Positions 24,767 through 45,165 of a DNA stretch of 64,000 bases are shown here, piece by piece (positions within the stretch are counted from its first letter, which is position 1; each line of letters starts with the position of its first letter). A program made the position numbers and the translations under genes. The notes below the pieces were generated by a model. The model searched no databases. It was not told where the DNA came from and saw only the letters and a program-made list of their open reading frames with translations. The stretch is from contig JAUNSV010000007.1 of assembly GCA_030539055.1 (NCBI GenBank), positions 1 to 64,000 on the forward strand, read 5' to 3'. Source of the stretch: Eubacteriales bacterium (GTDB lineage Bacteria; Bacillota; Clostridia; Lachnospirales; Lachnospiraceae).

Positions 24767-25387
24767 TTAATTATTTTTATTTAAATTTCGATCAACAATA
24801 TATTTTTTATATTCCTCTTTTGTATTTATGTTTTGTAATACAAATTGATTTATTCCTAGTTTTTCATATGGTACCATTTTGATATCCATTTTATCTATTA
24901 TATTAATAATTTTTAAATCTCCACTTGTAATCATTTCTTCTATTATTGGTAACATTTTTTTTGAATATATAGAAGCTGTTGGTTCTATTCTTCCTAAATA
25001 ATCTATTACAAAAATACCATTTGTATCTTTAGTGATGAATGAAATAAGTGTACTTATATACTGTTCATTTATATAAGGAATATCGCATGCACATACAAAC
25101 ATATATTCATTTTTAATTTTTTTTAATCCACTATATATGGCACCTATTACACCTATATTATTATATTCATCTAATACTATATTATATTTGCAATTTTTTG
25201 GAGTATTTTCAATTTTATCTAATGATAAATATATATCTCCACAATGAGATAAAGTTTTAGTTATTTTTTCATAAAAAGTACTACCAAAAAAATCAAGGTA
25301 AGCTTTAGGTTCTCCCATGCGTTTTGATTTTCCACCCATCAAAAGAAGCATGTCTACATTATTATTTGTTTTTATAATGTTATCCAT
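24767..25387 (-). CDS. mobA: Molybdenum cofactor guanylyltransferase MobA
   Basis: It attaches GMP to Mo- or W-pterin, giving the bis-MGD cofactor of formate dehydrogenases. The 206-residue protein has the nucleotidyltransferase start LLLMGGKSKRMGEPKA, the metal-binding ACDIPYI motif and the terminal NINTKEEYKKY segment. It follows the antiporter module by 6 nt, so it appears to be the last gene of that operon. This placement ties the antiporter genes to formate dehydrogenase biogenesis. The 127 bp between this gene and the metK promoter hold nothing else recognisable. Confidence 0.9.
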   Translation of the reverse strand: MDNIIKTNNNVDMLLLMGGKSKRMGEPKAYLDFFGSTFYEKITKTLSHCGDIYLSLDKIENTPKNCKYNIVLDEYNNIGVIGAIYSGLKKIKNEYMFVCACDIPYINEQYISTLISFITKDTNGIFVIDYLGRIEPTASIYSKKMLPIIEEMITSGDLKIINIIDKMDIKMVPYEKLGINQFVLQNINTKEEYKKYIVDRNLNKNN

Positions 25388-25393
25388 TATTTA

Positions 25394-27451
25394 TTATTTT
25401 GCCATAAGAAATATTAAATATATCATTATCGCAAGTAGACCAATACCAAAAAGTAATAAAGAAAATGAAAATGATGAAGTTATGACACTTGATACAGGAG
25501 CATCTTTTTTTATTGGCAGCGTATCTCCATTTTTAAAATCTGTATCATTTTTTATTGGTATTTTGATTGTTTTCATTAGTGTTTTACTTAATAACCATAT
25601 TATAAAGTCTACACTCTCTGCTATTATTTTTAATATAAAGCCAAAGAAATAAATCACTTTCCATGTTAAAAAATCAATGCTTTCTGCTAATATCTTAAAA
25701 ATAAATCCAAAAATATTAGGTAGGAAAACTTGAATTACTGGTCTATATATTAAAGTTTCTATATCTAAGCTTTTTGGCCATATATTAACATATACTTTTT
25801 CACCTTTTTCATTTTTTCTTATTAAAACATTTCTAATAAATAATAAATATACTAAGGCACCAATAAGCAGTGAAATTAATGCTCCTTTTATATTAGTAAA
25901 TGAAAAATATGCTATCTCATGTGCTGGGTGACTGCCTCTCATAAAACTTTCTGCCATAGTACCAATTTTATCCATAAATATATGTGGGAAGAATCCTAAA
26001 ATTGGAAGAATAGAAGCAGATACAGTTATTACAAAAGCACTTATTTTATTCATATATGGTGTTTTTGCGTGATGAAAGGCGTTTATGTCATTATTTTTTT
26101 CTATAAAAATACATACATACAATTTAGTCATATATGCTACAGTAAGCCCACCTGATATTAAGAATATCCACTCAGATATTTTATACATCAAAAATGGTAA
26201 GCCTTCTTCTTCTAATATTTCAATATATTCAACTATACTCTCATGAAGAAGAGTCTTGCTAATATATCCATTCCATAGTGGCATACCAATAATTCCAAGT
26301 ACTCCCATTAAAAAAATGAAATTTAATAATTTTTTTCCTCTCCCAAATCCCCTAATTTTATTTAAATCAAGTTCATGCAAATTAATATATACAACACCTG
26401 CAGCCATAAATAAAGCAAGCTTAATTAGTGAATGATTAAGCATATGTAGCACTGTACCCCATACAGCTAAGCCATTATGATGACCAAGCAAGCCTTGCAT
26501 TGCAATACCTATCATAATGAATCCTATTTGCGACATTGAAGAGCAAGCTAAAGTTCGTTTCAAGTCAATAGAGAAAACTGCAAGTAATGCTCCTAAAAAC
26601 ATTGTTATTATAGCAAGAGAAAAAATAATTTTTGACCAAGTTTCATTATGATACATAATATTAGCATTTACTACCAACATACCAAATACGCCAGCCTTAG
26701 TAAGTATGCCTGACAAAAGTGCTGATGCTGGTGCTGGTGCTACAGGATGTGCTTTAGGCAACCAAATATGAAGTGGAAACATACCTGCTTTTGCACCAAA
26801 GCCAAATAATATAAGAATTGATGGTAATAATAATATACTTTTATTATTCAATTTTGAAATAGCTTTATATAATAATTCAAAATCTAATGTTCCAGTAATA
26901 TTGTATAATAAGAATAATCCCATTAACATTACCATACCGCCAATAATAGCAACAGCAATATATACATCTCCCGCTTTCATTGCTTTCTCTTCTTCGGTAT
27001 GTACCACCATAATATATGAGGTGAATGACATTATCTCAAAAAATATAAATGTAGTAAATAAATCATTAGATAAAAAAACTCCCTCTGTTGCAGCAAATGT
27101 GATAAGTGTAAATAAGTAATATCTATTTCGATTGTGATAATGCTCCATATATTCTTTAGAAAATATAGTTGTCATCATCCACATTAATCCACAAATAACT
27201 ATATAAATAGCTCTAAAGCCATCTAGTTTAAATGTTAGTCCTCTGTTGCATATAAAAGGCATGAAACATTCCATTGTAATGCCATTTAAACCTTGTATCA
27301 AAAGAAAAAGTAATAGTATAAATTCAATGATACATACTCCCCAATCAAAATAATCTCTTATATTTTTATTTTTCCGACCGATTAAATATCCTATAAAAGC
27401 ACCACATATAGGTAGTATTGATACAATAAATAAAATAATATTTCCAGTCAT
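25394..27451 (-). CDS. NuoL/MrpA-like proton-conducting membrane subunit with extra C-terminal helices
   Basis: A large antiporter-like subunit of the complex I/Mrp/group 4 hydrogenase family. About fourteen membrane helices include the conserved Glu (FFEIMSF) and the FGFGAKAGMFPLHIWLPKAHPVAPAP core with its Lys. Length 685 exceeds the roughly 490 of plain MrpD. The extension holds two copies of a 22-residue amphipathic unit (FGFIFKILAESIDF and FGFILKIIAESVDF, about residues 578-620) and a final membrane helix. This may be a counterpart of the lateral helix of NuoL. It is the last of four such subunits in the operon, followed by mobA. It pumps or exchanges protons/cations; the partner is unknown. 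Confidence 0.85.
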   Translation of the reverse strand: MTGNIILFIVSILPICGAFIGYLIGRKNKNIRDYFDWGVCIIEFILLLFLLIQGLNGITMECFMPFICNRGLTFKLDGFRAIYIVICGLMWMMTTIFSKEYMEHYHNRNRYYLFTLITFAATEGVFLSNDLFTTFIFFEIMSFTSYIMVVHTEEEKAMKAGDVYIAVAIIGGMVMLMGLFLLYNITGTLDFELLYKAISKLNNKSILLLPSILILFGFGAKAGMFPLHIWLPKAHPVAPAPASALLSGILTKAGVFGMLVVNANIMYHNETWSKIIFSLAIITMFLGALLAVFSIDLKRTLACSSMSQIGFIMIGIAMQGLLGHHNGLAVWGTVLHMLNHSLIKLALFMAAGVVYINLHELDLNKIRGFGRGKKLLNFIFLMGVLGIIGMPLWNGYISKTLLHESIVEYIEILEEEGLPFLMYKISEWIFLISGGLTVAYMTKLYVCIFIEKNNDINAFHHAKTPYMNKISAFVITVSASILPILGFFPHIFMDKIGTMAESFMRGSHPAHEIAYFSFTNIKGALISLLIGALVYLLFIRNVLIRKNEKGEKVYVNIWPKSLDIETLIYRPVIQVFLPNIFGFIFKILAESIDFLTWKVIYFFGFILKIIAESVDFIIWLLSKTLMKTIKIPIKNDTDFKNGDTLPIKKDAPVSSVITSSFSFSLLLFGIGLLAIMIYLIFLMAK

Positions 27452-27470
27452 TTTTGCTCCTTATATCAAA

Positions 27471-28955
27471 TTAAAATAAATTTCCTGCTACTCCATTTAA
27501 AAAATTCATAATAGGCTGTGAATAAATTCCCGTGATAAACATTATTATACATAAAATAATAAAAGGTATTTTCATATAATTAGATGGATCTTCAACTTCA
27601 TTTATTGTTTCATAATTAAAATCTTTTCCAGGGAAATAGGCTTTAATAACTACATCAAATAAGTATTTTGCTGTTAGATAAGCAGAAATAAGTAATACTA
27701 TTATTCCAACAAAAGCAATAAAAGAATTTTCTCTTACAGCAGCTATAGCAATATTATATTTTGATACAAATCCACAAAGAAGAGGTACTCCTGTAAGTGC
27801 CATTGAAGCAATAGAAAATGTTGCAAATGTTACAGGCATTTTGCGTGCAAATCCTTTAAAATCTGGTATGTATTCTTTATTGCTCTTATGCATTATAGCT
27901 CCTGCACAAAAGAATAATGTTATTTTCATAAATCCATGAAACAACATATGTGACATAGCAGCAAAAAAACCATATGAAGACATAAGTGTTATAGCAAACA
28001 CAATATATGATAAATTTGAAATAGTACTATAAGCGAGTCTTCTTTTTATTTGTTGTTCCTTTAATGCCATAGATGAACCATATAATATTGTCCAAATTGC
28101 AAAAGCCATAGCAATATATTGGACATAAGTCCCTTTAAAAATTGATATTCCAAAACCAAAATACACTACTCTCATAAGAGCGAAAACCCCAGCTTTAACT
28201 ACAGCAACTGCATGTAAAAGTGCTGTTACTGGAGTGGGTGCAACACCTGCACTAGGTAACCATCCGTGCAATGGAAAAATAGCTGCTTTTACACCAAATC
28301 CAAAAAAACATAAAAAGAATGCAATAACTAAATGAGGTTGTATATTGGTAACATTATTTAAAAAACCACCAAGTTTAAATTCAAGACTAGTCCCAGTCTC
28401 TCCTACCAAAATCATCATTCCAGCAAAGGCACAAGCTGCACCAGCAATAGAGTAAATCATATATTTTATACCTGCATGAACAGCTCGTTTATTCATATCA
28501 TGCATAACAAGTGGAATCGTAATAAGAGTCAATAGTTCATAAAAGAAGTACATAGTTATTAAATTTGCACTCATTGCTATACCACAAGTAATACCAAATG
28601 TAATAGTATATAAACAAAAAAATCTATTCTTATTTTCACTATGCTCCATATACTCAAAAGCATAAAATGATGCGAGTGGCCACAGGAAACCCACAAGACC
28701 CATAAATACTTTTGACAATCCATCTATATGCAATGATATATGAAAATTACCAGGTAATCGAAATAAAGTAATACTATTCTCTGGTGTATTAAATAATAAA
28801 AAGAAGATTAATAAAGCATTAATAATTACAACAGATGCTACATATATTTCTCTTTTTTTATCATGATGAGTATTATTATCAAAAGATAAAATTGGAATCA
28901 ATCCTCCAAAAAATATTGGTATTAATATTGGTAGAATAATTAGAAAATTATACAT
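27471..28955 (-). CDS. MrpD-like antiporter subunit (third large subunit)
   Basis: A 494-residue polytopic membrane protein of the proton-conducting transporter family (NuoL/M/N, MrpA/D). Key features are FYELLTLITIPLVMHD (conserved Glu in helix 5), FGFGVKAAIFPLHGWLPSAGVAPTPVTALLHAVAVVKAGVF (Lys in helix 7), and KRRLAYSTISNLSYI near helix 10. It lies between two homologous large subunits with 15-20 nt gaps. Paralogue rank in the complex is given only by gene order. Confidence 0.85.
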   Translation of the reverse strand: MYNFLIILPILIPIFFGGLIPILSFDNNTHHDKKREIYVASVVIINALLIFFLLFNTPENSITLFRLPGNFHISLHIDGLSKVFMGLVGFLWPLASFYAFEYMEHSENKNRFFCLYTITFGITCGIAMSANLITMYFFYELLTLITIPLVMHDMNKRAVHAGIKYMIYSIAGAACAFAGMMILVGETGTSLEFKLGGFLNNVTNIQPHLVIAFFLCFFGFGVKAAIFPLHGWLPSAGVAPTPVTALLHAVAVVKAGVFALMRVVYFGFGISIFKGTYVQYIAMAFAIWTILYGSSMALKEQQIKRRLAYSTISNLSYIVFAITLMSSYGFFAAMSHMLFHGFMKITLFFCAGAIMHKSNKEYIPDFKGFARKMPVTFATFSIASMALTGVPLLCGFVSKYNIAIAAVRENSFIAFVGIIVLLISAYLTAKYLFDVVIKAYFPGKDFNYETINEVEDPSNYMKIPFIILCIIMFITGIYSQPIMNFLNGVAGNLF

Positions 28956-28971: not shown

Positions 28972-30453
28972 TTATAATATTGTCCCAACGATACTATTTA
29001 TGATATTAAGTAATCCGTGTGGATATAATCCAAAAAGAACAATTAATATAGTCAATATAATCATTGGAATAGTCATTAATTTTGGCTCTTTTATTTTTTC
29101 TAAAGAATTATAATCAAAATCATTCCCTGGAAAGAAAGCATTTATTGTAATAGTAAATAAGTAACCTGCTGTGAGTAATGCAGAAATAATCAATACTATT
29201 GGACCAAGTATAGCATAAGGTTGAATATTTAAGCTAAGAGAGCCAACACATAAATACCATTTAGAAATAAAACCAGAAAGAGGTGGTATACCAATAAGCG
29301 ATAATGAAGCTATTGTGAAGCACCACATAACTATAGGCATTCTTTTTCCCATTGCTTTAAAGTCTTTTACATTAGTTTTATGTGTAAGATATATTATGGC
29401 TCCAGCTGTTAAAAATAAAACGTCTTTGATCAATGAGTGAAAATACATATGGAGCATTGCTCCTGTAAAAGCAATTTTATTTAATAATGCTAGGCCAAAA
29501 AGAATATAAGAAACTTGAGAAACAGAAGAATAAGCAAGTCGTTTTTTGAATATTGTCTCATTATATGCGAGCATTGAACCCATAAATACAGTTATAAGTG
29601 CAAGAATAATCCATGCGTATTGAACCCAAGTTCCCCTAATAAAATCTACACCAAACAAATAATATACTGTTCTAATAATACAAAGAACACCTGCTTTAGT
29701 AATAACTCCAGATAATACAGCAGATGCTGGTGCTGGTGCTACGGGATGAGCTGTAGGAAGCCAAGCGTGCAGTGGAAACATACCTGCTTTTGCACCAAAT
29801 CCTATAATAGATAAAAATGATACTACTAATAATGTTGTATGAGCATTTTGTGTTAATGAAATATTATTTAATACTCCGCCTGGTAAAAATTCAAGTATAG
29901 GAGAATAATAAGATATGAAAAATAAATTTAATAATCCAAGTGAGGCTCCAAAAATAGAATAATATAAATACTTCTTAGCTGCTTGAATTGCTTCTTTTGT
30001 ACCAGAGTGAAGGACTAATGGCATTGATAAAAATGTCATGAATTCAAAGCATAAGTATAAAGTAACAAAGTTGCCTGCAAATCCAAGACCTAGTATAGCT
30101 CCTAAAGTGAGTAAATAAAATATATAAAATCTGTTTCTATTCTCTTCGTGTTTTATATATTCAAAAGAAAATACTCCAACCATAAGCCACATAAAACTAC
30201 AAAGCATAGTAAACCATTTAGACATTAAATCTTTTTTAAATAAAATTGGTAATTTTTCGCTCAACCTTAATACTGTAACACTGACATCACCATATAAACA
30301 ATTTAATATTACAATAAATAAAGTTAAAACTAACGAAATAAAAATACAAATATTTCTTTTTTTGTCATCCTTAAATATTGGTACTACTCCTATTATTAAT
30401 GCTCCAATCATAGGAATTAGTATTGCACCAAACATTAATACTTCTTGAATCAT
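28972..30453 (-). CDS. MrpD-like antiporter subunit (second large subunit)
   Basis: A 493-residue polytopic membrane protein of the same family: CFEFMTFLSMPLVLH with the conserved Glu, FGAKAGMFPLHAWLPTAHPVAPAPASAVLSG with the Lys, and KKRLAYSSVSQVSYI. AAAGGAG precedes the ATG. Together with its neighbours it would form the stack of ion-translocating modules in the membrane. Confidence 0.86.
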   Translation of the reverse strand: MIQEVLMFGAILIPMIGALIIGVVPIFKDDKKRNICIFISLVLTLFIVILNCLYGDVSVTVLRLSEKLPILFKKDLMSKWFTMLCSFMWLMVGVFSFEYIKHEENRNRFYIFYLLTLGAILGLGFAGNFVTLYLCFEFMTFLSMPLVLHSGTKEAIQAAKKYLYYSIFGASLGLLNLFFISYYSPILEFLPGGVLNNISLTQNAHTTLLVVSFLSIIGFGAKAGMFPLHAWLPTAHPVAPAPASAVLSGVITKAGVLCIIRTVYYLFGVDFIRGTWVQYAWIILALITVFMGSMLAYNETIFKKRLAYSSVSQVSYILFGLALLNKIAFTGAMLHMYFHSLIKDVLFLTAGAIIYLTHKTNVKDFKAMGKRMPIVMWCFTIASLSLIGIPPLSGFISKWYLCVGSLSLNIQPYAILGPIVLIISALLTAGYLFTITINAFFPGNDFDYNSLEKIKEPKLMTIPMIILTILIVLFGLYPHGLLNIINSIVGTIL

Positions 30454-30472: not shown

Positions 30473-31981
30473 TTATCCGAATGTAGATAGTCCCATACTT
30501 ATAATGCTCTCATATGTATCTGAAAATATTCCTATAGAAAAATTTAATAATATAAAAATTACTAATACAATTGCATATGAAAAATGATAATGTGCTTTCA
30601 CATCTTTAAATGAATCATCATGTCTTACATGATACAAATTAAAAATTGCTGGCAAATAATACATTGCATTTAAAACTGTACTTATAATAATAGCTATTAA
30701 AGCCATAATCATTTTTATATTTCCATACTCTATAGCAGCCATACACAAATTGAACTTTGTTGAAAAACCAGCAAGTAATGGTATTCCAACCATTGATAAA
30801 CCTCCTATGGTAAAAGCTACCCCAGTCAATTTATCCCTATAACCTGCTCCAGACAAGTCTTTTGCTTGTTTTGAACCACCAGATACATCCATTAGCCCAC
30901 CTGAGCAAACAAAAAGCATAGGCTTAGTAAAAGCATGTGCCAAGATTTGCAAAGAAGCAGCAATTATTCCAAGATTTGTGCCAAGCCCAATTCCTAAATA
31001 TACATAACCAATTTGAGCTACAGAAGAATAAGCAAGCATCTTCTTTATATCTTGTTGCGATATTGCTTTTATTGATCCTATTATCATAGCTAGTATACCA
31101 AATACAAAAAGTATATTTGTAACTTGATCTACTTCTATTACATCTAGCCCTATAACTCTATAAAAAATCTTTATTAATAAAATTATGTATCCTTTTAATA
31201 CAAGCCCAGAAAGGATTGCTGATGATGAAGCTGTTGCATTGCCATGTGCATCTGGTAACCAAGTATGAAAAGGAAAAAGTGCAGATTTAATTGATAATCC
31301 TATGCTAAATAATCCAATTATAACAGTCAATGGAAACATATATTGATTGCTTTCAACTAATAAGTTTACTGCTTGTCCAAGCTGTGGCATAAGTAAGTGT
31401 CCTGTCAAATCGTATAACATAGTAATTCCAAGTAAGAATAATCCAGAACCAAGAAGCGACATAACCATATATCTTGTAGTTGCAACTATAGTTTTACCAC
31501 CTCTGTATTTAAGCATTACTATAGCACAAGAAGTAATTGTATTAATTTCTACAAACACATATCCAGTAAAAATATCATTGGTATATATTAGTGCAAAAAG
31601 AGAAGATAAAAGTAAACTAATCATACAAAAATATAAATTTGTTTTTTTCTCTTCTGTATCTTCAAAAATATGAGACATTCCACCTATCAATGACAATAAC
31701 ATAATTCCAGAAAAGCAAGTAGCCATTAAGCTTTCAAATGGGCCTATTCTAAGTTCATTGCCCCAAGGTGCGGGAAAATGACCCATCATAAAAGCGTAAG
31801 AAGTTTTTGTACTCAAAGTGAAAAGTAAAGTAATAAGTGACATAACAAAGGTTGCAAAAATAACTATGCATTGAAAATACATTGCTTTTTTTGGTTTTAA
31901 AATAGAACAAATTACACCACTTGATAAAGTCATAATAATTGTAAAAAAAGGAAAATTTTGACAAAAAGCAAGATGCTCCAT
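30473..31981 (-). CDS. mrpD: MrpD/MnhD antiporter subunit (first large subunit)
   Basis: By position directly behind mrpC this is the canonical MrpD/MbhH equivalent. The conserved membrane motifs are FVEINTITSCAIVMLKY (Glu) and GLSIKSALFPFHTWLPDAHGNATASSSAILSG (Lys), with KKMLAYSSVAQIGY. The start at 31981 is chosen over one 11 codons earlier because AAGGAGG lies just before it and it starts 1 nt after the mrpC stop; this gives 502 residues. Confidence 0.88.
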   Translation of the reverse strand: MEHLAFCQNFPFFTIIMTLSSGVICSILKPKKAMYFQCIVIFATFVMSLITLLFTLSTKTSYAFMMGHFPAPWGNELRIGPFESLMATCFSGIMLLSLIGGMSHIFEDTEEKKTNLYFCMISLLLSSLFALIYTNDIFTGYVFVEINTITSCAIVMLKYRGGKTIVATTRYMVMSLLGSGLFLLGITMLYDLTGHLLMPQLGQAVNLLVESNQYMFPLTVIIGLFSIGLSIKSALFPFHTWLPDAHGNATASSSAILSGLVLKGYIILLIKIFYRVIGLDVIEVDQVTNILFVFGILAMIIGSIKAISQQDIKKMLAYSSVAQIGYVYLGIGLGTNLGIIAASLQILAHAFTKPMLFVCSGGLMDVSGGSKQAKDLSGAGYRDKLTGVAFTIGGLSMVGIPLLAGFSTKFNLCMAAIEYGNIKMIMALIAIIISTVLNAMYYLPAIFNLYHVRHDDSFKDVKAHYHFSYAIVLVIFILLNFSIGIFSDTYESIISMGLSTFG

Positions 31982-31982
31982 A

Positions 31983-32369
31983 TTATTCTTCCTCCTTACT
32001 AGCAATTCGAACAATCTTATCTATATCTAGAGTATGATATTTTTTATATAATCTAATAGTCAAAGCAAGCATAAAAGCTGTTACAGAAACACTAACTACA
32101 ATTCCAGTTAAAACTAAACCAGCAGGTATTGGATTAATATATCTTTCAAAACTTGTATCATATGATCCATTTTCAAAAATAAGAATTGGTGCTACACGCC
32201 CTTGAATGTATCCTTTTGCTGCTAAAAATAAATATATTGCTGTATCCATAAAGTTAAAACCAATTATTTTTTTTATTAAGTTTCTATGGAGAAGTAAGGT
32301 TGTGAAACCTATTCCAAAAATAATTACTGCTGTGGTTTCATAAAAATTAGAAAATAGATTATTAAACAT
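31983..32369 (-). CDS. mrpC: MrpC/MnhC antiporter subunit (NuoK-like)
   Basis: A small NuoK-like subunit with three membrane helices. LLHRNLIKKIIGFNFMDTAIYLFLAAKGY and NPIPAGLVLTGIVVSVSVTAFMLALTIRLYKKY match MrpC, including the PxPxALVLTxIVVxxA-type stretch. The ATG at 32369 has AAGGAG upstream and directly follows the preceding stop. An upstream ATG that would overlap the mrpB-like gene is less likely. Length from this start is 128 residues. Confidence 0.9.
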   Translation of the reverse strand: MFNNLFSNFYETTAVIIFGIGFTTLLLHRNLIKKIIGFNFMDTAIYLFLAAKGYIQGRVAPILIFENGSYDTSFERYINPIPAGLVLTGIVVSVSVTAFMLALTIRLYKKYHTLDIDKIVRIASKEEE

Positions 32370-32370
32370 T

Positions 32371-33327
32371 TTACATATCTCCTTTTCTAAACAAACTATA
32401 AAAAGCATACATTGTACTACATACTACTAATCCTACACATATATTTAATGGAAGAATAAGCCCTGAGCTTATTATGTTACCAGCTATACCCTTTGGTATA
32501 ATTGATTCAATATGATTTGCTCCTGTATAAAACGAATATGTTTTTAATAAGGCATATGCAATCAACCCAAAAAGTGAAATCCATTTAAATGTATTGAAAT
32601 TAAAAAATTTTTCTATTTTTTCGTATCCAAAAGCAGTAAGATATAAAATTAAACCTGCTCCCATTATTGCACCACCAGAAAATCCACCACCAGCAGAGAG
32701 ATGTCCATTTAATACTATATATATACCTAAAATCATTATTATAGGAAAAAGAATACTAGTAGCAAATTTTAATACTTGATTATCATAATCATAATACTTT
32801 TCATCATCACTTAAGTCTTGCAATTCTTTTAAATAATATTTTTTATTTTGATCTTTCTCTAATTTCAAAAGAATTATAACAGCAATTACTGCACAAAAAA
32901 GCACATGCGATTCACCCAAGGTATCAAATGCTCTATAGTCTAGTATTAAACCACCTACTAGGTTTACAGCACCTGTCTCTTTTAATCCCTCCGTTATATA
33001 TCTTCTTGATACTTCATTATTAGCAGGATTTGATGGGTTTCCAAATTGTGGCAAAAATGATACAGTTAATAAAAGAAGTGTAATCATAATTAAACATGTT
33101 AAAATAGAAATAGCCATATATACTCTTCTATAATACATAATGCCAAATGTATTGAACCAATTTGTCATTCTTTGAAAAGCATTTTTTTCTTTTTTTGATT
33201 CCTCTAAAAAATATTTAGTAGATTCATCTATTGTAACATTTGATTTAATATTAACATTTTCATTATCTATTTTTAGCTTTTCATCGCCGTCAACCCATCT
33301 TTTTATTGCTTGAAAAAATTTATTCAT
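32371..33327 (-). CDS. MbhE-MrpB fusion antiporter subunit
   Basis: A 318-residue protein joining two pieces that are often separate. After a charged cytoplasmic N-terminus (about 65 residues) comes an MbhE-like part (the last portion of MrpA; LGGLILDYRAFDTLGE-type segment near residue 125, seen here as VGGLILDYRAFDTLGES). It is followed by MrpB proper (GIYIVLNGHLSAGGGFSGGAIMGAG, then four helices). It overlaps the DUF4040 gene upstream by 8 nt. The split of MrpA in this way is the Mbh-type arrangement rather than the Bacillus Mrp arrangement. Confidence 0.87.
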   Translation of the reverse strand: MNKFFQAIKRWVDGDEKLKIDNENVNIKSNVTIDESTKYFLEESKKEKNAFQRMTNWFNTFGIMYYRRVYMAISILTCLIMITLLLLTVSFLPQFGNPSNPANNEVSRRYITEGLKETGAVNLVGGLILDYRAFDTLGESHVLFCAVIAVIILLKLEKDQNKKYYLKELQDLSDDEKYYDYDNQVLKFATSILFPIIMILGIYIVLNGHLSAGGGFSGGAIMGAGLILYLTAFGYEKIEKFFNFNTFKWISLFGLIAYALLKTYSFYTGANHIESIIPKGIAGNIISSGLILPLNICVGLVVCSTMYAFYSLFRKGDM

Positions 33328-33595
33328 TTTTTGCCTCCTCTATCTCATCTTCTGTATCTTCATCAATTGCATCAATTTTTTTTAATGTAGCAAAAAATAA
33401 AAGAGATGTTACACCAGCACCAACAGCTGCCTCTGTGATAGCAAGATCTGGAGATTCAATATTGAACCAAATTACAGACATTACTAATGAGTAAGACATA
33501 TATATGACAATAGAAGTAAGAAAACCTTTTGTTAAACATACAACTAGAGCACATCCAATAAGAGAAAAAAGGAGTAAGGCAATAAAAATATTCAT
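33320..33595 (-). CDS. DUF4040/MbhD-type subunit (MrpA C-terminal piece)
   Basis: A 91-residue protein with three membrane helices and an acidic tail. The TKGFLTSIVIYMSYSLVMSVIWFNIESPDLAITEAAVGAGVTSLLF stretch is the DUF4040 domain that forms part of MrpA in Bacillus and is the free-standing MbhD in membrane-bound hydrogenases. It is translationally coupled to the mrpG-like gene upstream (4-nt overlap). Confidence 0.9.
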   Translation of the reverse strand: MNIFIALLLFSLIGCALVVCLTKGFLTSIVIYMSYSLVMSVIWFNIESPDLAITEAAVGAGVTSLLFFATLKKIDAIDEDTEDEIEEAKNE

Positions 33596-35400: not shown

Positions 35401-35496
35401 TGGCGGGAGCATGTAAGAATCGAACTTACCTAAACGGGGTTAGCCGCTATTACCGGTTTTGAGGACCAGAGGGCACACCAGAACCCATCTACTCCC
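35401..35496 (-). tRNA. selC: Selenocysteine tRNA (selC, anticodon TCA)
   Basis: A 96-nt minus-strand tRNA with encoded CCA, a long acceptor starting GGGAGTAG, an extended D-arm (GGG...CCC), anticodon stem CTGGT/ACCGG around loop CCTCAAA (TCA anticodon), a long variable arm and T-arm GTAAG-TTCGATT-CTTAC. Size and anticodon identify tRNA-Sec, which reads the in-frame UGA of fdhF. It starts 3 nt after the selB stop, inside a selA-selB-selC-fdhD run. Position 33 is C rather than the near-universal U. Confidence 0.95.
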
Positions 35497-37412: not shown

Positions 37413-38801
37413 TTACTTGTTTAATTTAATAATCTCTTCCTTTATGATATTATAATCTTCTTTTTCTATTGTTCTAAAGTCTAAGAGGAAATTATTATTT
37501 TTTATTCTACCAATAATTGGATTGTTTGATAACCTAAATTTTTTTTCTATATCATTTACACTTAATTTATTTTTTTTAATAGATAAACAAACTGTTTTTA
37601 ATTTTACTCCAGGTAAGCTTCCACCACCAACCTCAGATTCATCATCTATTAAATCTAATTCTATATCACTTATATTTTTACACATTTTAAGAAAATAATT
37701 TACTTCTTTTTTTATTTCTTCATAAGTTTTATTTATCATCTTTAAAGTAGGTATTTTTTTGTAATAATCTTCATCATCTCGATATACTCTTAAAGTTGCC
37801 TCAAGTGCCATAAGAGTCATTTTGTCTACTCTAAATGCTCTCATAAGTGGGTTCTTTTTTATTTGATCTATGTATTTTTTCTTTCCCATTATTATGCCAG
37901 CCTGTGATGCACCTAAGAGTTTATCACCACTAAAACATAAAATGTCTACTCCAGATTTAATTGCTTCATATATATTTATTTCATCATATATACCTATTTT
38001 TGACAAATCATAAAATAGTCCACTTCCTAGGTCAAAAATCAATGGTATATTATGCTTATTTGCTATTTTTTTTAATTCAATTATACTTGGTGATTCATTG
38101 AAGCCTATAATTTTAAAATTGCTTGTATGTACTTTTAATATAGCTTTTGTTTCTTCATCAATATTATTTTCATAATCACTAAGGTGAGTTTTATTTGTTG
38201 TTCCAACTTCTTTTAATATTGTATTACTTTCTCTCATTATATCGGGGATTCTAAATGATCCTCCTATTTCTACTAATTCACCTCTAGATACTAAAACATT
38301 TTTATTTTTTGTAAGTGTAGATAAAATCAAAAAAACTGCAGCTGCATTATTATTAACAACTATTGCTTCTTCTATATCAAACATCTCCTTAAGAATAGAA
38401 TTAATATGAATATATCTTTCACCTCTTTCGCCTTTCAATAAATCGTATTCCAAGTTAGAGTAATTTTTAGATATTTCATATACTTTTTTTGCTGCTTCCT
38501 CCGGTAAATTTGCTCTTCCAAAATTTGTATGGAGTACAATACCTGTAGCATTAATTACTTTTTTTAAAGAGAAAGATGAATATTTTTCTATATTATTTTT
38601 TATCATAATATTTATTTCTTCTTCAGATGGCACATTATTTATTTTTTCTTCAATAATGTTTTTTCTAATTTCATCTAAAACATTTCTAATACAAGTTAGA
38701 ACTGTTTTTTTTGAAAACTCATCTAATAGTTTTACACAAAAAAAACTGTTTTGTACAGTGTCTACTTTTGGTATTTTTTTTAATAATAGTTTTTTTTCCA
38801 T
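37413..38801 (-). CDS. selA: L-seryl-tRNA(Sec) selenium transferase SelA
   Basis: A PLP enzyme converting Ser-tRNA(Sec) to Sec-tRNA(Sec) with selenophosphate; 462 residues. NATGIVLHTNFGRANLPEEA, VNNNAAAVFLIL, SRGELVEIGGSFRIPDIM and the PLP-lysine segment CFSGDKLLGASQAGII identify it. The gene's start codon immediately follows a 17-bp hairpin and a T-rich stretch, with no visible Shine-Dalgarno site, so its expression may depend on read-through from the hydrogenase operon or on a start near the ATG. selD was not found in the window. Confidence 0.95.
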   Translation of the reverse strand: MEKKLLLKKIPKVDTVQNSFFCVKLLDEFSKKTVLTCIRNVLDEIRKNIIEEKINNVPSEEEINIMIKNNIEKYSSFSLKKVINATGIVLHTNFGRANLPEEAAKKVYEISKNYSNLEYDLLKGERGERYIHINSILKEMFDIEEAIVVNNNAAAVFLILSTLTKNKNVLVSRGELVEIGGSFRIPDIMRESNTILKEVGTTNKTHLSDYENNIDEETKAILKVHTSNFKIIGFNESPSIIELKKIANKHNIPLIFDLGSGLFYDLSKIGIYDEINIYEAIKSGVDILCFSGDKLLGASQAGIIMGKKKYIDQIKKNPLMRAFRVDKMTLMALEATLRVYRDDEDYYKKIPTLKMINKTYEEIKKEVNYFLKMCKNISDIELDLIDDESEVGGGSLPGVKLKTVCLSIKKNKLSVNDIEKKFRLSNNPIIGRIKNNNFLLDFRTIEKEDYNIIKEEIIKLNK

Positions 38802-38809
38802 AAAAATAA

Positions 38810-38849
38810 TTTAAGAGTAAGCTTATTTTTGAATAAGCCTACTCTTAAA
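38810..38849 (-). terminator. Strong hairpin between hydA and selA
   Basis: On the minus strand a 17-bp stem (one G-T pair) runs from 38849-38833 and 38826-38810 around a six-base loop, followed by TTATTTTT. It fits an intrinsic terminator for the fdhF-hydA operon, but it sits only 8 nt before the selA start codon, so it may act as an attenuator for selA. Confidence 0.75.
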
Positions 38850-38863
38850 TTTTGTATCAAATT

Positions 38864-40252
38864 TTATTTCTTCTTAGTTTTTCCATTGTAATAAGTTGTA
38901 TGCAATAAGTGATGTGATTTTTCTCCATTTGGTTCACCAAAATAATCTTTGTAAATTTTCTTTATACTTGGATTATCATGAGATTTTCTTAATGGCAAGT
39001 TTTCATCATGCTTATATGTAGAATTTCTTCTATGATCTATAGCTTCAAATGTATCTGTATCCTCTAGAAGTTTAGGTTGTCCTCCTCCACTTACACATCC
39101 AGATGGGCAAGTCATTACTTCTATGAAATGATAATCATTCAATTTACCAGCTTTTAAATCTTCCATAACTTCTTTAACATTCTTTAAGCCAGTTACAACA
39201 CCAACTTTGAGTGTCAAATCACCTACTTGTATAAGAGATGTTTTGATACCAGAATAGTTACGAACAGATAAGATGTTTACATCTGGAATAGCTTTCTTTG
39301 TTATAAGTTCATATCCTGTTCTAAGAGCAGCTTCCATAACTCCGCCACCTACACCAAATATTACTCCAGCACCAGTATAATCACCTAATGGAGAATCATA
39401 CTCTTCATCTTTTAAATTAGCAAAATCTATACCTTTATATTTTATTAGATAAGCTAATTCTCTTGTAGTTAAAACAACATCAACATCTTTGAATCCACTT
39501 GATTTCATTTCTTCTCTATTACACTCATACTCTTTACAAGTACAAGGCATTACAGAAACACTAAATACATTCTCTGGTTTTATTTTGCTCTCTTGTGCTC
39601 CATATGTTTTAAATATAGGTCCAAGCATTTGTTGTGGTGATTTGCAAGAAGAAAGGTGATCTGTCATCTCTGGGTAGTTTAATTCCATAAATCTAACCCA
39701 TGCTGGACAGCATGAAGTAAACATTGGTAAAACTCCACCCTTAGTAACTCTTGTTATTAATTCTGTACCCTCTTCCATAATTGTTAAGTCAGCAGAAAAG
39801 TCTGTATCATACACTTTATCAAAACCAACTTTTCTTAATGCTGCTGCCATTTTTTTATCTGCTAATGATCCAAGTGGGAATCCAAATTCTTCGGCAATAG
39901 CCATACGAACAGCTGGAGCAGATTGAACCATAGTGAATTTTGATTTGTCTTCTAATGCTTCTATTACTTCATTAATGTGAGTAACATTATATGCAGCAAA
40001 TAATGGTTCTTTTACTGTTTCTGGTAAATTTCTTTCTTTTCTTACTTTTTCATAAGCATCATTGCCATGAGATACTATTGATACATAAGATTTGCATTTT
40101 TGTACGCATTGACCACACATTACACATTTATCTGTATTAATTTCTTGTGCTTCTCTTGGATTTCCTTCAATTGCATCTACTGGGCATACTTTTGTACACT
40201 CTTGACATCCTGTACATATATTTTTGTCTATTGTAACATAAGTCATACTCAT
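38864..40252 (-). CDS. hydA2: [FeFe] hydrogenase, HydA2-like catalytic subunit of HDCR
   Basis: Catalyses reversible H2 oxidation at an H-cluster. Two N-terminal 4Fe-4S sites (CTGCQECTKVC and CVMCGQCVQKC) lead into the H-cluster motifs: L1 TSCCPAW, L2 MPCTCKEYE and L3 EVMTCPSGCVSGGGQP. At 462 residues without longer ferredoxin extensions it matches HydA2 of the Acetobacterium woodii hydrogen-dependent CO2 reductase. It overlaps the upstream ferredoxin gene by 4 nt, with AAAGGAGG 7 nt before the ATG. Maturases HydE, HydF and HydG are not in the window. Confidence 0.93.
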   Translation of the reverse strand: MSMTYVTIDKNICTGCQECTKVCPVDAIEGNPREAQEINTDKCVMCGQCVQKCKSYVSIVSHGNDAYEKVRKERNLPETVKEPLFAAYNVTHINEVIEALEDKSKFTMVQSAPAVRMAIAEEFGFPLGSLADKKMAAALRKVGFDKVYDTDFSADLTIMEEGTELITRVTKGGVLPMFTSCCPAWVRFMELNYPEMTDHLSSCKSPQQMLGPIFKTYGAQESKIKPENVFSVSVMPCTCKEYECNREEMKSSGFKDVDVVLTTRELAYLIKYKGIDFANLKDEEYDSPLGDYTGAGVIFGVGGGVMEAALRTGYELITKKAIPDVNILSVRNYSGIKTSLIQVGDLTLKVGVVTGLKNVKEVMEDLKAGKLNDYHFIEVMTCPSGCVSGGGQPKLLEDTDTFEAIDHRRNSTYKHDENLPLRKSHDNPSIKKIYKDYFGEPNGEKSHHLLHTTYYNGKTKKK

Positions 40253-40830
40253 TTCAATTCCTCCTTTCCAAATGATTTAGTTAAAGAAAGGCTGTAAGCA
40301 GATTTAATATTTTTTTCTTTTCTTTCTTTTTCTGGTTCTACTAATCTTAGTGCTTCATTTGGGCATACTCTTACACAAGCAGGTCCGCCATCAATACCTT
40401 GACATAAATCACATTTTGATGCACTTAATTGAGTATCTGTGCATCCAACTTGTGCAACTACTTTACCGTTTTTGCAAAGTGGTAAAAGTGATATTGCTCC
40501 AAATGGACAAGCCATCATACAATCTTTGCATCCAATACATTTTTCAACATCGACAATTACTTTATGGTCAATTCTGCAAATAGCATCTTTTTGACAAGCA
40601 TTTAAGCAAGGTGCATCTTCGCAATGTTTACATTGTATAGGAACACAAAAACCGTCTCCTTTCGTAACATAAAGCTTTGGTGTTACTGGAATAGTAACTG
40701 TACCGACTGTTTTTCCTACACCATTAGTTTTCTTGTTGTGCTCTGCAAAACAAGCAACTTCGCAAGCCTTACAACCAGTACACTTTGATGTATCGCCGAC
40801 TACATACTTCCCTAGTCTTAATTCCTCCAT
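40249..40830 (-). CDS. HycB/HydN-type ferredoxin, HDCR electron-transfer subunit
   Basis: A 193-residue polyferredoxin with four cysteine clusters: CTGCKACEVAC, CKHCEDAPCLNAC, CIGCKDCMMAC and CDLCQGIDGGPACVRVC, a HycB/HydN layout carrying four 4Fe-4S centres. It would pass electrons between the formate dehydrogenase side and the hydrogenase (HycB3 position). A basic C-terminal tail of about 25 residues follows the last cluster. It is coupled to hydA by ATGA overlap and lies 27 nt after the other ferredoxin gene. Confidence 0.9.
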   Translation of the reverse strand: MEELRLGKYVVGDTSKCTGCKACEVACFAEHNKKTNGVGKTVGTVTIPVTPKLYVTKGDGFCVPIQCKHCEDAPCLNACQKDAICRIDHKVIVDVEKCIGCKDCMMACPFGAISLLPLCKNGKVVAQVGCTDTQLSASKCDLCQGIDGGPACVRVCPNEALRLVEPEKERKEKNIKSAYSLSLTKSFGKEELK

Positions 40831-40857: not shown

Positions 40858-41409
40858 TTACTTACAAACTTTTTCAGCCTTTAAAGAAGCTTCGTTCAAT
40901 TCTTTTGCTGTATTTTGTCTATTTTTCTCAACATTATTTATCAAGTCTTCTTCACTTACAACTTTTAATGCTTCGGTTGGACAAACAGCTACACAGGCAG
41001 GACCATCAGGGTTTTCTCTACATAAGTCGCATTTATTTGCTACGATTTTCTTTTCGCCTTTTGCTTGATACTCACATTTTACTTCTGTCATATCTATAGC
41101 ACCAAATGGACATGCATTCATACAATTTTTACAACCTATACAATTTGTTGTATTAATTGTAACTACATTATCTATTATACTTATACAATCATTTGGACAT
41201 ACTGCTTTACAAGCTGGATCCTCACAATGTTTGCATTGTACAGGAACAGATATTGTTGCAGTTTTTACCATATGAAGTCTTGGATTAAATGAATAACTAT
41301 CTGGATCTATTTCAAAAATATGTGAGCCTTCGTGTGATACTACACATGCTATCATACATGTTCTACATCCCATACATAAATCTGGGTTTCCTTTTACAAA
41401 ATGATTCAT
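40858..41409 (-). CDS. HycB/HydN-type ferredoxin next to FdhF
   Basis: A second four-cluster ferredoxin (CMGCRTCMIAC, CKHCEDPACKAVC, CIGCKNCMNAC, CDLCRENPDGPACVAVC), the HycB2-like partner docking on FdhF. The ATG at 41409 is chosen over one nine codons upstream: AAAGGAGG lies before it, it starts 1 nt after the fdhF stop, and the N-terminus MNHFVKGNPDLCMGC aligns with HydN. Length is then 183 residues. Confidence 0.92.
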   Translation of the reverse strand: MNHFVKGNPDLCMGCRTCMIACVVSHEGSHIFEIDPDSYSFNPRLHMVKTATISVPVQCKHCEDPACKAVCPNDCISIIDNVVTINTTNCIGCKNCMNACPFGAIDMTEVKCEYQAKGEKKIVANKCDLCRENPDGPACVAVCPTEALKVVSEEDLINNVEKNRQNTAKELNEASLKAEKVCK

Positions 41410-41410
41410 A

Positions 41411-43603
41411 TTATTTGGCCTCCTTTGCTTCAACATCTATTCCCATACGAGAACGAATGTTTCTATATTCTGTTTTTACATAGTTTTCGGCCCAATCTTG
41501 GTCATTAAGTTTTTTGATATTGACTGCACAATATTTATACTCTGGTGTATTTGAAATAGGATCTAAATTAGCAATAGTAAGTTCATTACATGCTCCAATC
41601 CACCATTGATATGTCATAGCAGTAGCACCCTCTTGCATTCTTTCTGTTGGTAAACATCTTGTCATACACCAACCACGCTTACTAAGTACTTTTACTATTT
41701 CACCCTCTTTTATGCCAAGTTTTTCACAATCTTTTTTATTCATTTGTATCCAACCTGGTTCATCTTCAAGGCTTCTTAATAATCTGCAATTTCCTGTCAT
41801 TGTTCTGCATGAGTAGTGACCTACCTCACGAACTGTATTCAATGAATATGGGAATTCTTCAGATTCTAATTCTTTTGGTGTTCTCCACTCTGTAGCAAAG
41901 AATTTTCCTTTGCCATCTTTAGCTGAGAATTTACCAACATGTAGAGTAGATGTACCTTTATCGTCCATATCTTCAGACTTACATGGCCATTGTACTCCAC
42001 CATACTCTTCCATCTTTTTATATGTAGCACCTATGAAGTTTGGACAAAGCTTTCTCATTTCATCCCAAATTTCTTCAGTGTTCTTGTAATGCATTTTGTA
42101 TCCCATTTTTGTAGATACTTCAGATATAATATCCCAGTCGAGTCTAACTCCCTTAGGAGGCTCAATAACTTTTCTTACTCTTTGGAATCCTCTATCACAG
42201 CATGAATATACACCATCATGTTCACACCAAGTAGTAGCAGGAAGAAATACATCTGCAAATTCTGCTGTTTTATTCATAAATATATCTTGAACTATAACTA
42301 AGTCAAGCTTTCTTAGTGATTCTCTAACTTCTTCTAGATCTGGATCTGTTTGAGCTGGATCTTCTCCAAATATCCAATATGCATGAAGTTGTTTCTTAGG
42401 ATCTTTTTCATTTAATACTTTCTCTGGTACATGAGTTAATGGTGTACCGTTTTCATTTGAAAGTTTTACTCCCCATGCTTTCTCAAATTTCTCTTGAACA
42501 GCTGGATCTGTAACAGCTTGGTATCCTGGATAATTGTTTGGAAGAGCACCCATATCACAAGCACCTTGCACATTGTTTTGTCCTCTAACTGGTCCAACAC
42601 CTGATGCCCACTTACCTATATTACCAGTCATCATAGCTAAGTTAGCTAAGCCTTTAACAACATCAACTGCTTGTCCAAATTGGCAAACACCCATTCCATA
42701 TAGAATTGCAGCTGGTTTAGTTGTTGCATACATTCTAGCTGCTTCTCTAATTTTTTCTGCAGGAATTTGAACTGTCTTTTCAACTGCTTCTGGAGTGTAT
42801 CTATCTTGATCAATAACTTTTACAAAATCTTCCCAACCAGTTGTTCTTTCATTAATAAATGCCTCATCATATAATTTCTCACGATAAATTACATTAGATA
42901 ATGCATAAACAAGAAGTAAATTAGTTCCGCCTTTTAATTGAAGATGTATATCGGCAATACGAGCGGCTTCAACTACTCTAGGATCTGCACAAATTATTTT
43001 TGCACCTTTTTGTTTTGCTCTAATGATTCTTCTTTGTACTATAGGATGAGAATCAGCTCCATTGTAACCATAATTCAAAATACATTTTGCGTCCTCTATT
43101 TCATGAACACCATTTGTCATTGCTCCTGAACCAAATGAATACTGTAGACCCGCTACAGAAGGAGCATGTCATATTCGAGCGCAATGGTCAATATTGTTTG
43201 TACCAATGCAAGCCCTCATAAATTTTTGCATTACATATACGGCTTCATTTCCAGGTGAACGAGCAGAAGCTGTACCCATAATTGAATTAGCACCATATTT
43301 TGCTTTAATCTTAGTTAAGTTATCAACTACAAATTGAATAGCTTCATCCCAAGAACATGGTTCTAATTTTCCTCCCTTTCCACCTCTTCTAATCATAGGT
43401 GAAGTAACCCTTTTTGAAAGAATTTGAGGATCATTTGTAAAATCCCAACCATAGTGACCCTTTAAACAAAGAGTACCTTGATTTGTTCTTCCCATAGCAG
43501 GCACTGCTTTTACTATTTTGTTGGTGTCTGTATCAACTGTAAAATCGATTTGACAACCAGCTCCACAATAAACGCAAGTGTTTCTTACTGTCTTAACTGC
43601 CAT
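41411..43603 (-). CDS. fdhF: Selenocysteine formate dehydrogenase FdhF (FDH-H type)
   Basis: A Mo/W-bis-MGD enzyme interconverting CO2 and formate. The gene is one reading frame interrupted by UGA at 43169-43171, where alignment with E. coli FdhF (CARVU-HGPSVAGL) demands selenocysteine: here CARI-U-HAPSVAGL, residue 145. A 4Fe-4S site near the N-terminus uses Cys10, Cys13, Cys17 and Cys46. Typical later motifs are RGQNNVQGACDMGALPNNYPGY and STVREVGHYSCR. Total about 730 residues, normal for FDH-H. A SECIS hairpin follows the UGA. AAGGAGG stands before the ATG. It leads an HDCR operon with two ferredoxins and HydA2. Confidence 0.96.
43142..43171 (-). promoter_or_regulatory. SECIS element with UGA(Sec) of fdhF
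   Basis: Ten nt after the UGA (43169-43171) the mRNA forms CUGUAG-CGGGU-CUACAG (43158-43142). The loop GGU and the following CU match the GGUCU of the E. coli fdhF SECIS apical loop bound by SelB. Distance and size also match the bacterial type. Confidence 0.88.
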
Positions 43604-43637
43604 TGTTTATTTCCTCCTTAATTTTTTTATCTAATAA

Positions 43638-43734
43638 GTTTCCTTTTCAAAAAGGAAGGCACAGTCGTTTTCTTCTATACCCTTACGGATTACAGCCATA
43701 GGCTTTTATACCCTTAGGCAATAAACTCGGAAAC
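43638..43734 (-). promoter_or_regulatory. Structured leader upstream of fdhF, riboswitch candidate
   Basis: The 143-nt gap before fdhF carries a potential closing helix GTTTCC (43734-43729) with GGAAAC (43643-43638). The last part of that helix competes with a local hairpin TTCCTTT/AAAGGAA (43657-43640). Inside are GCC-TAT-GGC and two near-identical copies of TAAGGGTATARAAG (43716-43703 and 43685-43672). Mutually exclusive stems plus internal repeated motifs suggest a regulatory RNA. A Mo/W-cofactor-sensing class would fit the gene, but I could not match its consensus. Confidence 0.45.
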
Positions 43735-43746
43735 AAAATAGCAATG

Positions 43747-45165
43747 TTATTCTTTATCTTCAATAACTTTCATACCAAAATTTTCAAATACTGGAATAAG
43801 TAAAAATGCTACTATTCCACTTGTAAATCCACCATTATAGAAATTTAAGAAATTGTACATAAGTGGTGTTGTCATAACAAGAAGTGCATGCATAAATCCT
43901 GCAATAATACCACCTTTAACTCCGTATTTACCAGATACTGGTGCAAGCCCAGATGCGAAGCAAAGACCTACTAAATATCCTTGAGTTGTAAGAGACCACT
44001 TTAGTGAACCAACGGCCCCACATTTAAATGCTATAATAGGAACAAATGATGCTACAGCATATCCTATCATTATTGGAAGCAATGTTCGTGGTTGAGCTCC
44101 GTTAGCAACAAATGCAAACATACAGAATATTGCACCCATTGTTGCACCATTAAAATTAGCTCTTGTAAATCCAAACACACCACTTTCATCAAATTTGATA
44201 CCGCGTATTAATAAATAATAGCACAAAATAAATAATCCATATACTCCAAAATTTATTAAAGTGGTACCCATTCCATATTTTGCTGTGAAATCGGTTTTAT
44301 ATCCAGTAGACATAAATAAATCTTTATATTTACTCCAAGCTTGTTTGTCTAATTTCATACCCCAAATTATACAAATTAAAAATACTACAACACAGAACAA
44401 TGATAAAAATAATTTAAAATTTGTACCTAAGTGTGTATTTGTAGTATTTGGAACTCCTGTAGCTGTATATAAAAGTGAGAACATAAGCATAGCCATAAAA
44501 CCTGCTGCTGGGCCTGCATTATATAGATCGTATCCCTTATGAAAATTAGGTGCATGACCACATATTCCAGGCATCATAAATGCTACAACAATACCTAATG
44601 CTAAAGCTCCAACAAGCCCTAGAACAGTGAAATGAGGAACATAATTTGCATTTATTACACCATCTAAAATTGATTTGTTAATATCACCAGAAAGTGGATA
44701 TCTAAATAATAATTCAGATACAAAAGGTGCTAATGCAGAAGAGAAAAATGCAAAATTTAAACATTTTCCAAACTCAATCTTTTTTACTTTAGAATATATG
44801 TATCCACCAAGAAAAAAAGGTAAGCAATTTAGTGCTGTCATACCAAATGGAGCAAACCCTACATTTAACCAATATGCTGCAACAGAAACTCCATTTGCAT
44901 TTGTTTTAGTTAAATACATCAAAACTACTACTTCTAACCCTACTATTCCACAATTTAAGAATGTAGCAGCCAAACCACCTAATTCAAAATAATCCATAGT
45001 GAATTGTGATGGGTAAGTCCAAATTCTAATAAGTCCAGGTATCATATTGCCAAGGTCTTTGTAAATAAAACCAGCAATAACACCTCCGATAATAAAAGCA
45101 CAAGAAAAAAATAATAGCACCTTTTTTATTATGCTACTATTATCCTGTTGTAAACCGTTATCCAT
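43747..45165 (-). CDS. DUF1576 multipass membrane protein
   Basis: A 472-residue protein with about twelve hydrophobic segments, which I recognise as the DUF1576 family; the function is not established. Two halves each have GLA- and GG-rich helices (e.g. GGLAATFLNCGIVGLE and YLVGLCFASGLAPVSGKYGVKGGIIAG), suggesting an internal duplication like that of transporters. AGGAGG precedes the ATG. It is the first gene before fdhF and divergent from a LysR regulator, so a role in moving formate or another substrate of this pathway is possible, but this is only inferred from position. Confidence 0.78.
   Translation of the reverse strand: MDNGLQQDNSSIIKKVLLFFSCAFIIGGVIAGFIYKDLGNMIPGLIRIWTYPSQFTMDYFELGGLAATFLNCGIVGLEVVVLMYLTKTNANGVSVAAYWLNVGFAPFGMTALNCLPFFLGGYIYSKVKKIEFGKCLNFAFFSSALAPFVSELLFRYPLSGDINKSILDGVINANYVPHFTVLGLVGALALGIVVAFMMPGICGHAPNFHKGYDLYNAGPAAGFMAMLMFSLLYTATGVPNTTNTHLGTNFKLFLSLFCVVVFLICIIWGMKLDKQAWSKYKDLFMSTGYKTDFTAKYGMGTTLINFGVYGLFILCYYLLIRGIKFDESGVFGFTRANFNGATMGAIFCMFAFVANGAQPRTLLPIMIGYAVASFVPIIAFKCGAVGSLKWSLTTQGYLVGLCFASGLAPVSGKYGVKGGIIAGFMHALLVMTTPLMYNFLNFYNGGFTSGIVAFLLIPVFENFGMKVIEDKE

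Follow-up and report, generated by a model that had tools for sequence, protein, structure and literature searches.

Genes for a hydrogen-dependent CO2 reductase adjoin a complete Mrp-type antiporter block in a Lachnospiraceae genome: a candidate accessory Na+/H+ exchanger

The stretch analyzed here (the window) comprises positions 1–64,000 of the forward strand of contig JAUNSV010000007.1 from an Eubacteriales bacterium (assembly GCA_030539055.1; 1.51 Mb in 83 contigs, 99.3% complete). On its minus strand, from 45165 to 24767, the genes of a hydrogen-dependent CO2 reductase (HDCR), genes for selenocysteine (Sec) and molybdenum cofactor (Moco) maturation and a complete Mrp-type antiporter block form one run in the order DUF1576, fdhF(Sec), two HycB-type genes, hydA2, selA, selB, tRNA-Sec, fdhD, ten antiporter genes and mobA. 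Every gene named in the initial annotation of this stretch was found at its stated coordinates, and the gaps of 9 nt between fdhD and mrpE and of 6 nt between the gene for antiporter subunit 4 (ant4) and mobA were borne out. Two features go beyond that annotation, a Moco riboswitch between DUF1576 and fdhF and a hairpin between hydA2 and selA (Table 1). The widest gap from fdhF to mobA is 62 nt (hydA2–selA) and the second widest 38 nt. On balance, we favor the interpretation that the antiporter is a separate Na+/H+ exchanger recruited to an island for formate, H2 and CO2 turnover, and not an electron-driven pump.

The presence of fdhF, two hycB genes and hydA2 in one cluster corresponds to the HDCR gene set, as the initial annotation had proposed. 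HydA2 has HDCR HydA2 (7qv7_D) as its best solved relative with 624 bits, compared to 407 for the next, while FdhF is closest to FDH-H (1aa6, 899 bits), followed by the FdhF of HDCR (7qv7_S, 608 bits). The fdhF gene contains an in-frame TGA at 43171–43169 in the context NIDHCARI(U)HAPS. HycB3 is 58% identical to its best counterpart in the cluster of genome G790, which we take to be Acetobacterium woodii-like on gene content; the numbers 3 and 4 of the hycB genes are likewise our assumption from gene order. In a tree of 13 HDCR sets, two of them partial (G007 without fdhF; G1007 with fdhF only), all four proteins group with other sets of this kind, among them the A. woodii-like cluster. The window's HDCR is predicted to be a soluble complex that interconverts H2 and CO2 with formate. 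Its FdhD matches only the second half of the PF02634 family profile, and a CxxC pair is absent from it and from eight other FdhD-like proteins compared.

The ten membrane genes encode MrpE, MrpF, MrpG, an MbhD-like subunit, an MbhE-MrpB fusion, MrpC and four antiporter subunits, so that all seven Mrp subunit types A–G are represented, with the C-terminal part of MrpA split as MbhD and MbhE. Each of the four antiporter subunits has kept the glutamate of transmembrane helix (TM) 5 and the lysines of TM7, TM8 and TM12, which we presume to be the ion residues of such proteins. Structural relatives were searched for two of the four: subunit 4 matches MbhH best (6cfw_H), followed by MrpD, MrpA, MBS, MrpD and HycC (7z0s_C), and subunit 1 is nearest to an MBS subunit. 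Its subunit content marks the block as a self-standing cation/proton antiporter of the Mrp type with no subunit type missing, which most likely exchanges Na+ for H+.

Within the window's genus, of which 13 genomes were sampled, the block and formate dehydrogenase occur together. Antiporter subunit 4 is present in eight genomes, seven of which also encode a formate dehydrogenase (E ≤ 1e-80), the exception being G006 (83% complete); none of the five without the block (G001, G002, G008, G011 and G012; 75–95% complete) gave such a match (Fisher p 0.005, uncorrected for relatedness). In all five testable sisters (G004, G005, G007, G009 and G010), mobA lies immediately ahead of mrpE, whereas it follows the block in the window; G003 and G006 were left out of this count because their contigs begin inside the block. 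DUF1576 directly follows ant4 in all seven sister genomes. The order selB–tRNA-Sec–mobA–mrpE in G004 comes close to the selB–tRNA-Sec–fdhD–mrpE of the window. Past DUF1576, G010, whose block is without antiporter 3, carries a relative of molybdopterin-binding proteins, a binding-protein-dependent transporter set that is molybdate-type by position and a MOSC-like protein, and G005 carries a Moco riboswitch, a large FdhA and two long [FeFe] hydrogenase genes. For this lineage, the sister mobA genes, the co-occurrence with formate dehydrogenase and the second pairing described below support the placement of the antiporter in a molybdenum/selenium/formate programme, as had been suggested initially.

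The HDCR operons of four sister species contain a type I 3-dehydroquinase-like gene between hydA2 and moeA (L125:1830-2636, L126:1503-2288, L128:1653-2411 and L129:3067-3852; PF01487 was tested for L125, and the others are alike by eye), an odd placement for a gene of the aromatic pathway. A second formate dehydrogenase type, consisting of a large FdhA whose two frames flank a TGA, together with a pair of long [FeFe] hydrogenase genes, stands directly behind the HDCR operon in G007 (L129:5506-12443) and on a separate contig in G009 (L127:3238-10156).

A second pairing of HDCR and Mrp genes is found in G283, the sole sampled representative of a different genus within the family. Here, one strand reads selB–selA–fdhD–mobA–moeA–mobB–fdhF–hycB3–hycB4–hydA2–mrpE...ant4 with all ten block genes, followed 64 nt past ant4 by a formate/nitrite transporter gene on the opposite strand (PF01226, 210 bits) and then by tRNA-Sec, moaC, moaA and a molybdate-type transporter set. 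In a tree of 97 Mrp blocks, G283 is placed among 19 blocks, the others of which are all unlinked (0.997). The window falls into a group of 11 that otherwise comprises its genus and two metagenome-assembled genomes (MAGs; 0.981). In the HDCR tree, G283 groups with G192 and G258 (1.0), neither of which has the pairing (no block match in G192; block on another contig in G258), and the window with its genus (0.987). Since G283 stands apart from the window on both trees, the pairing arose at least twice. The HDCR cluster of G192 also has a PF01226 formate/nitrite transporter gene, located directly past selA on the same strand (L223:1984-2739).

These findings have to be weighed against hitchhiking, by which a common Mrp operon would have come to lie in a molybdenum/selenium cluster by chance and been kept there by short distances and slow rearrangement, without any functional link to formate metabolism; we consider this possible but rather unlikely. 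It does not readily account for an association that outlasts the rearrangement of mobA within the genus, for the way in which presence and absence of the block track formate dehydrogenase there, or for a second, independent pairing bordered at its far end by a formate/nitrite transporter gene. By a crude estimate, same-strand adjacency in at least one of the nine genomes of other genera that hold both block and formate dehydrogenase has a chance of 0.004, compared to 0.11 for a mere location within 20 kb, which is suggestive but no proof.

The distribution of the block beyond the genus speaks for hitchhiking. Matches to the MbhE-MrpB protein were obtained in 34 of 117 relatives including the window's own genome (19 of these at E ≤ 1e-70) and, by the same protein, the block occurs in 86 of the 398 genomes of the family sample. 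We further inspected 80 named loci, most of them from MAGs and most with Lachnospiraceae or other Clostridia in their titles. All ten genes are present in 63 of these loci, 62 of them in identical order; 13 of the remaining 17 run off the end of their stretch, and L147, L190, L202 and L216 are without an inner or the last gene. The covered flanks have median lengths of 8.4 kb ahead of mrpE and 3.0 kb past ant4; 72 loci have 3 kb or more on one side or both, and 27 have it on both. No relative of mobA, fdhF, fdhD, hydA2, selA, DUF1576 or MOSC was found in these flanks in 79 of the 80 loci; weak modC- or selB-type hits in ten loci are other ABC transporters and an EF-G-like protein. The single linked locus, L212 (Lachnospiraceae bacterium RGIG6119, sheep omasum), is contig G007:C38 and belongs to the window's genus. 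In this family, the block is hence a commonplace antiporter that stands on its own. A block free of molybdenum and selenium genes in relatives, which the initial annotation had named as refuting its proposal, is therefore the usual state outside the genus as far as the flanks of these loci reach. In L053 (G094) and L054 (G107), the Mrp block is enlarged to five antiporter genes, of which three belong to the antiporter-1 type.

Further observations weigh against recruitment together with these unlinked loci. Across the family, block and formate dehydrogenase coincide in 12 of 398 genomes, which is at chance level (9.7 expected, p 0.24). HDCR-type fdhF (>60% identity) is rare (6/398), and four of the six genomes carry the block (p 0.02); without the window's genus this becomes two of four (p 0.20). 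Four HDCR-type fdhF loci sampled at class level (G790, G991, G905 and G1007) have no Mrp genes within ~14–20 kb, with hyc/hyd genes adjoining fdhF in all but G1007. The HDCR operons of G003, G004, G007 and G009 are located on other, short contigs, from which the distance to the block cannot be read, so that in the genus only the window shows HDCR joined to the block. Moreover, the neighbors of the block vary in other genera. In the Mrp tree, an Oscillospiraceae MAG (L162) provides the sister of the window's block (0.999) and an Erysipelotrichaceae MAG (L190) the sister of the blocks in its genus mates (1.0); neither MAG has molybdenum, selenium or formate neighbors in its flanks. Descent of the block within the genus is therefore not a single straightforward line: either L162 and L190 lost or never gained such neighbors, or the window and its sisters may have acquired their blocks separately.

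Transcript features add to these objections. A hairpin with a tail of five U lies between hydA2 and selA in the window, and in G283 hydA2 is likewise followed by a terminator-like hairpin; its presence in both linked lineages counts in favor of hitchhiking. The run may hence consist of two transcription units, with the hairpin of the window probably acting as a terminator or attenuator. Since a promoter does not fit 3′ of it, selA and the genes downstream would need read-through or a promoter inside hydA2, and the hairpin probably lowers the expression of the maturation and antiporter genes relative to HDCR. In addition, none of five sister genomes has a Moco riboswitch ahead of its mobA-mrp operon.

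Provided that recruitment applies, the soluble HDCR would interconvert H2 and CO2 with formate, and selA, selB, tRNA-Sec, fdhD and mobA would supply its selenocysteine and molybdenum cofactor. Its reaction would move protons either way (CO2 + H2 → formate + H+; formate + H+ → H2 + CO2). The antiporter, by exchanging Na+ for H+, could cover the proton imbalance arising from this reaction and from the movement of formate and CO2, and would link this imbalance to the gradient of Na+ or H+ maintained by a putative Rnf complex, of which rnfC was found in the window's own genome. The exchanger would act via bulk ions and receive no electrons. Uptake of an anion combined with proton use inside the cell may by itself build a gradient, which an Mrp exchanger could convert to a Na+ gradient; alternatively, the exchanger could guard the cytoplasmic pH. 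DUF1576 could be a channel of the island through which formate, CO2 or some other small solute passes, a part that the formate/nitrite transporter may play in its stead in G283. The physiological link, the ions, the reaction direction, the Rnf activity and the role of DUF1576 are what we infer here.

The structure model of DUF1576 resembles Amt/Rh channels and urea transporters, and the protein adjoins fdhF or the block in the genus. Both observations are compatible with a supply of CO2 or bicarbonate to HDCR by the antiporter-like subunits and perhaps a DUF1576 channel, for which the DAB and NDH-1 CO2 pumps are the model. We nevertheless hold this role to be most improbable, as the block is a full Mrp set and neither a DabA- nor a CupA-like partner was detected among the scanned cluster proteins. 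DUF1576 is also found in G002 and G012, where block and formate dehydrogenase gave no match, and in total matches in 37 of 117 relatives, at most 17 of them with formate dehydrogenase. This spread indicates that DUF1576 is not formate-specific, which counts against its place in the recruited island as well.

The initial annotation had also raised the possibility of a formate/H2-linked complex that conserves energy through Mrp-type subunits. Formate and H2 turnover would then directly drive ion pumping in a novel [FeFe]-hydrogenase formate hydrogenlyase. For this, one may point to HDCR lying directly before the block in G283, to the four antiporter subunits with full ion residues and to the resemblance of ant4 to MbhH and to HycC of formate hydrogenlyase. 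Redox-coupled relatives of Mrp, however, use a NuoH/MbhM connector (PF00146), for which the window's own genome gave no match at E ≤ 0.1. None of ten genomes gave a match above the cut-off, and weak hits in G003 and G006 stayed below it; the control of this search was positive in 11 of 14 named genomes. The absence of the connector excludes a canonical redox arm to the extent that the assembly is complete. The block's proteins include no NiFe or quinone module, in agreement with the initial annotation, and the scanned cluster proteins no [NiFe] group 4 hydrogenase or NuoD-type module, the large subunit not having been searched genome-wide. All four PF00361 matches of the whole genome fall within the block. 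For want of a redox module, a NuoH/MbhM connector and any further PF00361 gene, a pump of the complex-I/Mbh type finds no support.

A direct coupling of HDCR to the Mrp subunits finds little more room. The subunits of linked blocks show no extra length, a hairpin separates the HDCR and Mrp modules, and 74 of the 86 block-bearing family genomes sampled are without any formate dehydrogenase match. The conversion of formate to H2 has a value of +1.3 kJ/mol at standard conditions according to the accessible part of one report (PMC9097184), i.e. almost no yield, which would leave little energy for direct pumping. A membrane complex of HDCR and Mrp is hence very unlikely, and we give equally little credence to its more specific form, in which HDCR docks on Mrp, pumps Na+/H+ without a NuoH-type connector and evolved at least twice in the Lachnospiraceae. 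Nothing shows that the two form one machine; the two pairings hint at a joint function. The other possibility named at the outset, that the antiporter balances ions, fits the data better than an energy-conserving complex, which is left unsupported by the missing connector, the common free-standing operon, the subunit lengths and the hairpin after hydA2.

Table 1. Features of the gene run and of the divergent LysR-type regulator gene beside it in the window (PF, TIGR, NF and RF, family identifiers; residues of antiporter subunits in the order TM5, TM7, TM8, TM12)
Feature	Position	Strand	Evidence and remarks
LysR-type regulator, selenium-metabolism-associated family	45574..46488	+	NCBIfam NF040786, 287 bits (cut-off 250); divergent from cluster
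DUF1576 membrane protein	43747..45165	-	Predicted Amt/Rh- and urea-transporter-like fold
Moco riboswitch	43624..43744	-	RF01055, 64.4 bits, E 3.3e-13; between DUF1576 and fdhF
fdhF, HDCR-type selenocysteine formate dehydrogenase	41411..43603	-	TIGR01591, 839 bits (cut-off 666)
hycB3, HycB/HydN-type 4Fe-4S protein	40858..41436	-	HydN-type matches under cut-off
hycB4, second HycB/HydN-type 4Fe-4S protein	40249..40830	-	Number by gene order
hydA2, [FeFe] hydrogenase subunit of HDCR	38864..40252	-	TIGR02512, 438.6 bits (cut-off 406)
20-bp hairpin with five U	38808..38851	-	-22.6 kcal/mol, z -9.5; between hydA2 and selA
selA	37413..38801	-	TIGR00474, 577 bits
selB	35500..37401	-	TIGR00475, 370 bits
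tRNA-Sec	35401..35496	-	ARAGORN; Rfam RF01852, 58.5 bits; 3 nt 3′ of selB
fdhD, short form, 210 amino acids	34730..35362	-	PF02634, 175 bits, profile 99-236 only; TIGR00129, 149 bits
mrpE	34241..34720	-	TIGR00942, E 9e-19, under its cut-off
mrpF	33927..34244	-	PF04066
mrpG	33592..33930	-	PF03334
mbhD-like subunit	33320..33595	-	PF13244
MbhE-MrpB fusion	32371..33327	-	PF20501 and PF04039; profile matches 6u8y_E, 7d3u_A C-terminal region, 6cfw_E/F, 6z16_B
mrpC	31983..32408	-	PF00420; start codon uncertain
Antiporter subunit 1	30473..31978	-	PF00361; E144/K231/K262/K408; ATG 31978, ribosome-binding site AAGGAGG upstream
Antiporter subunit 2	28972..30453	-	PF00361; E137/K222/K253/K398
Antiporter subunit 3	27471..28955	-	PF00361; E140/K223/K254/K399
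Antiporter subunit 4, long C-terminal extension	25394..27451	-	PF00361; E139/K221/K252/K399
mobA	24767..25387	-	PF12804, 91.9 bits

Just past mobA, a SAM riboswitch with a terminator hairpin at 24544–24629 stands ahead of metK. At the other end, positions 46496–48515 hold a C5 cytosine DNA methylase followed by an open reading frame of 241 amino acids without Pfam match, perhaps a restriction-modification pair.

HDCR and Mrp are each known, and the literature searched contained no description of their recurrent gene pairing. The HDCR of Thermoanaerobacter kivui and A. woodii and the CbFdh/Hyd of Clostridium beijerinckii have fdhF-hycB-hycB-hydA2 and maturation genes in common with the window. 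The A. woodii-like cluster of G790 contains the same gene types, but without an Mrp block within ~14–20 kb. The stand-alone Mrp operon of the Lachnospiraceae, with its split MrpA, MbhE-MrpB fusion and four antiporter subunits, consists of the same ten genes with similar subunit lengths; unlike it, the window's block is placed between fdhD and mobA with Sec and HDCR genes upstream. Formate hydrogenlyase (Hyc) of E. coli is related through FDH-H, the nearest relative of the window's FdhF, and through the match of ant4 to HycC, whereas the window's genome has a complete Mrp set instead of a HycD-type PF00146 protein. Formate dehydrogenase genes also adjoin membrane genes in the proposed FDH-Ehr complexes of Riflemargulisbacteria and Saganbacteria, some with Mrp antiporter-like subunits (PMC6349859), and in Fdh-Ech of Moorella thermoacetica (PMC13040438); as far as the accessible parts of these papers describe them, both use [NiFe]-hydrogenase or hydrogenase-related subunits, which the window's cluster does not have.

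Soluble HDCR-type complexes might have a part in energy conservation; for such complexes, the available part of the C. beijerinckii paper states that a membrane association remains to be investigated (PMC12905484). The two separate pairings of HDCR and Mrp offer a concrete candidate for a tie between formate/H2 turnover and ion gradients in the anaerobes of this family. Another related system is Fdh2-Mfh2-Mnh2 of Thermococcus onnurineus, where, according to the excerpt available of PMC8965080, formate dehydrogenase, hydrogenase and Mrp-type modules are clustered as in the window and formate oxidation drives the translocation of H+ and then of Na+, with the Mnh2 antiporter in the gene cluster. 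That system includes a membrane hydrogenase module, in contrast to the window with its soluble [FeFe] HDCR and no connector subunit; the Mnh2 module is a known precedent for the proposed role of the antiporter. If the modest reading of the block as an accessory Na+/H+ exchanger is true, the island would parallel the archaeal Fdh-Mfh-Mnh arrangement with quite different enzymes.

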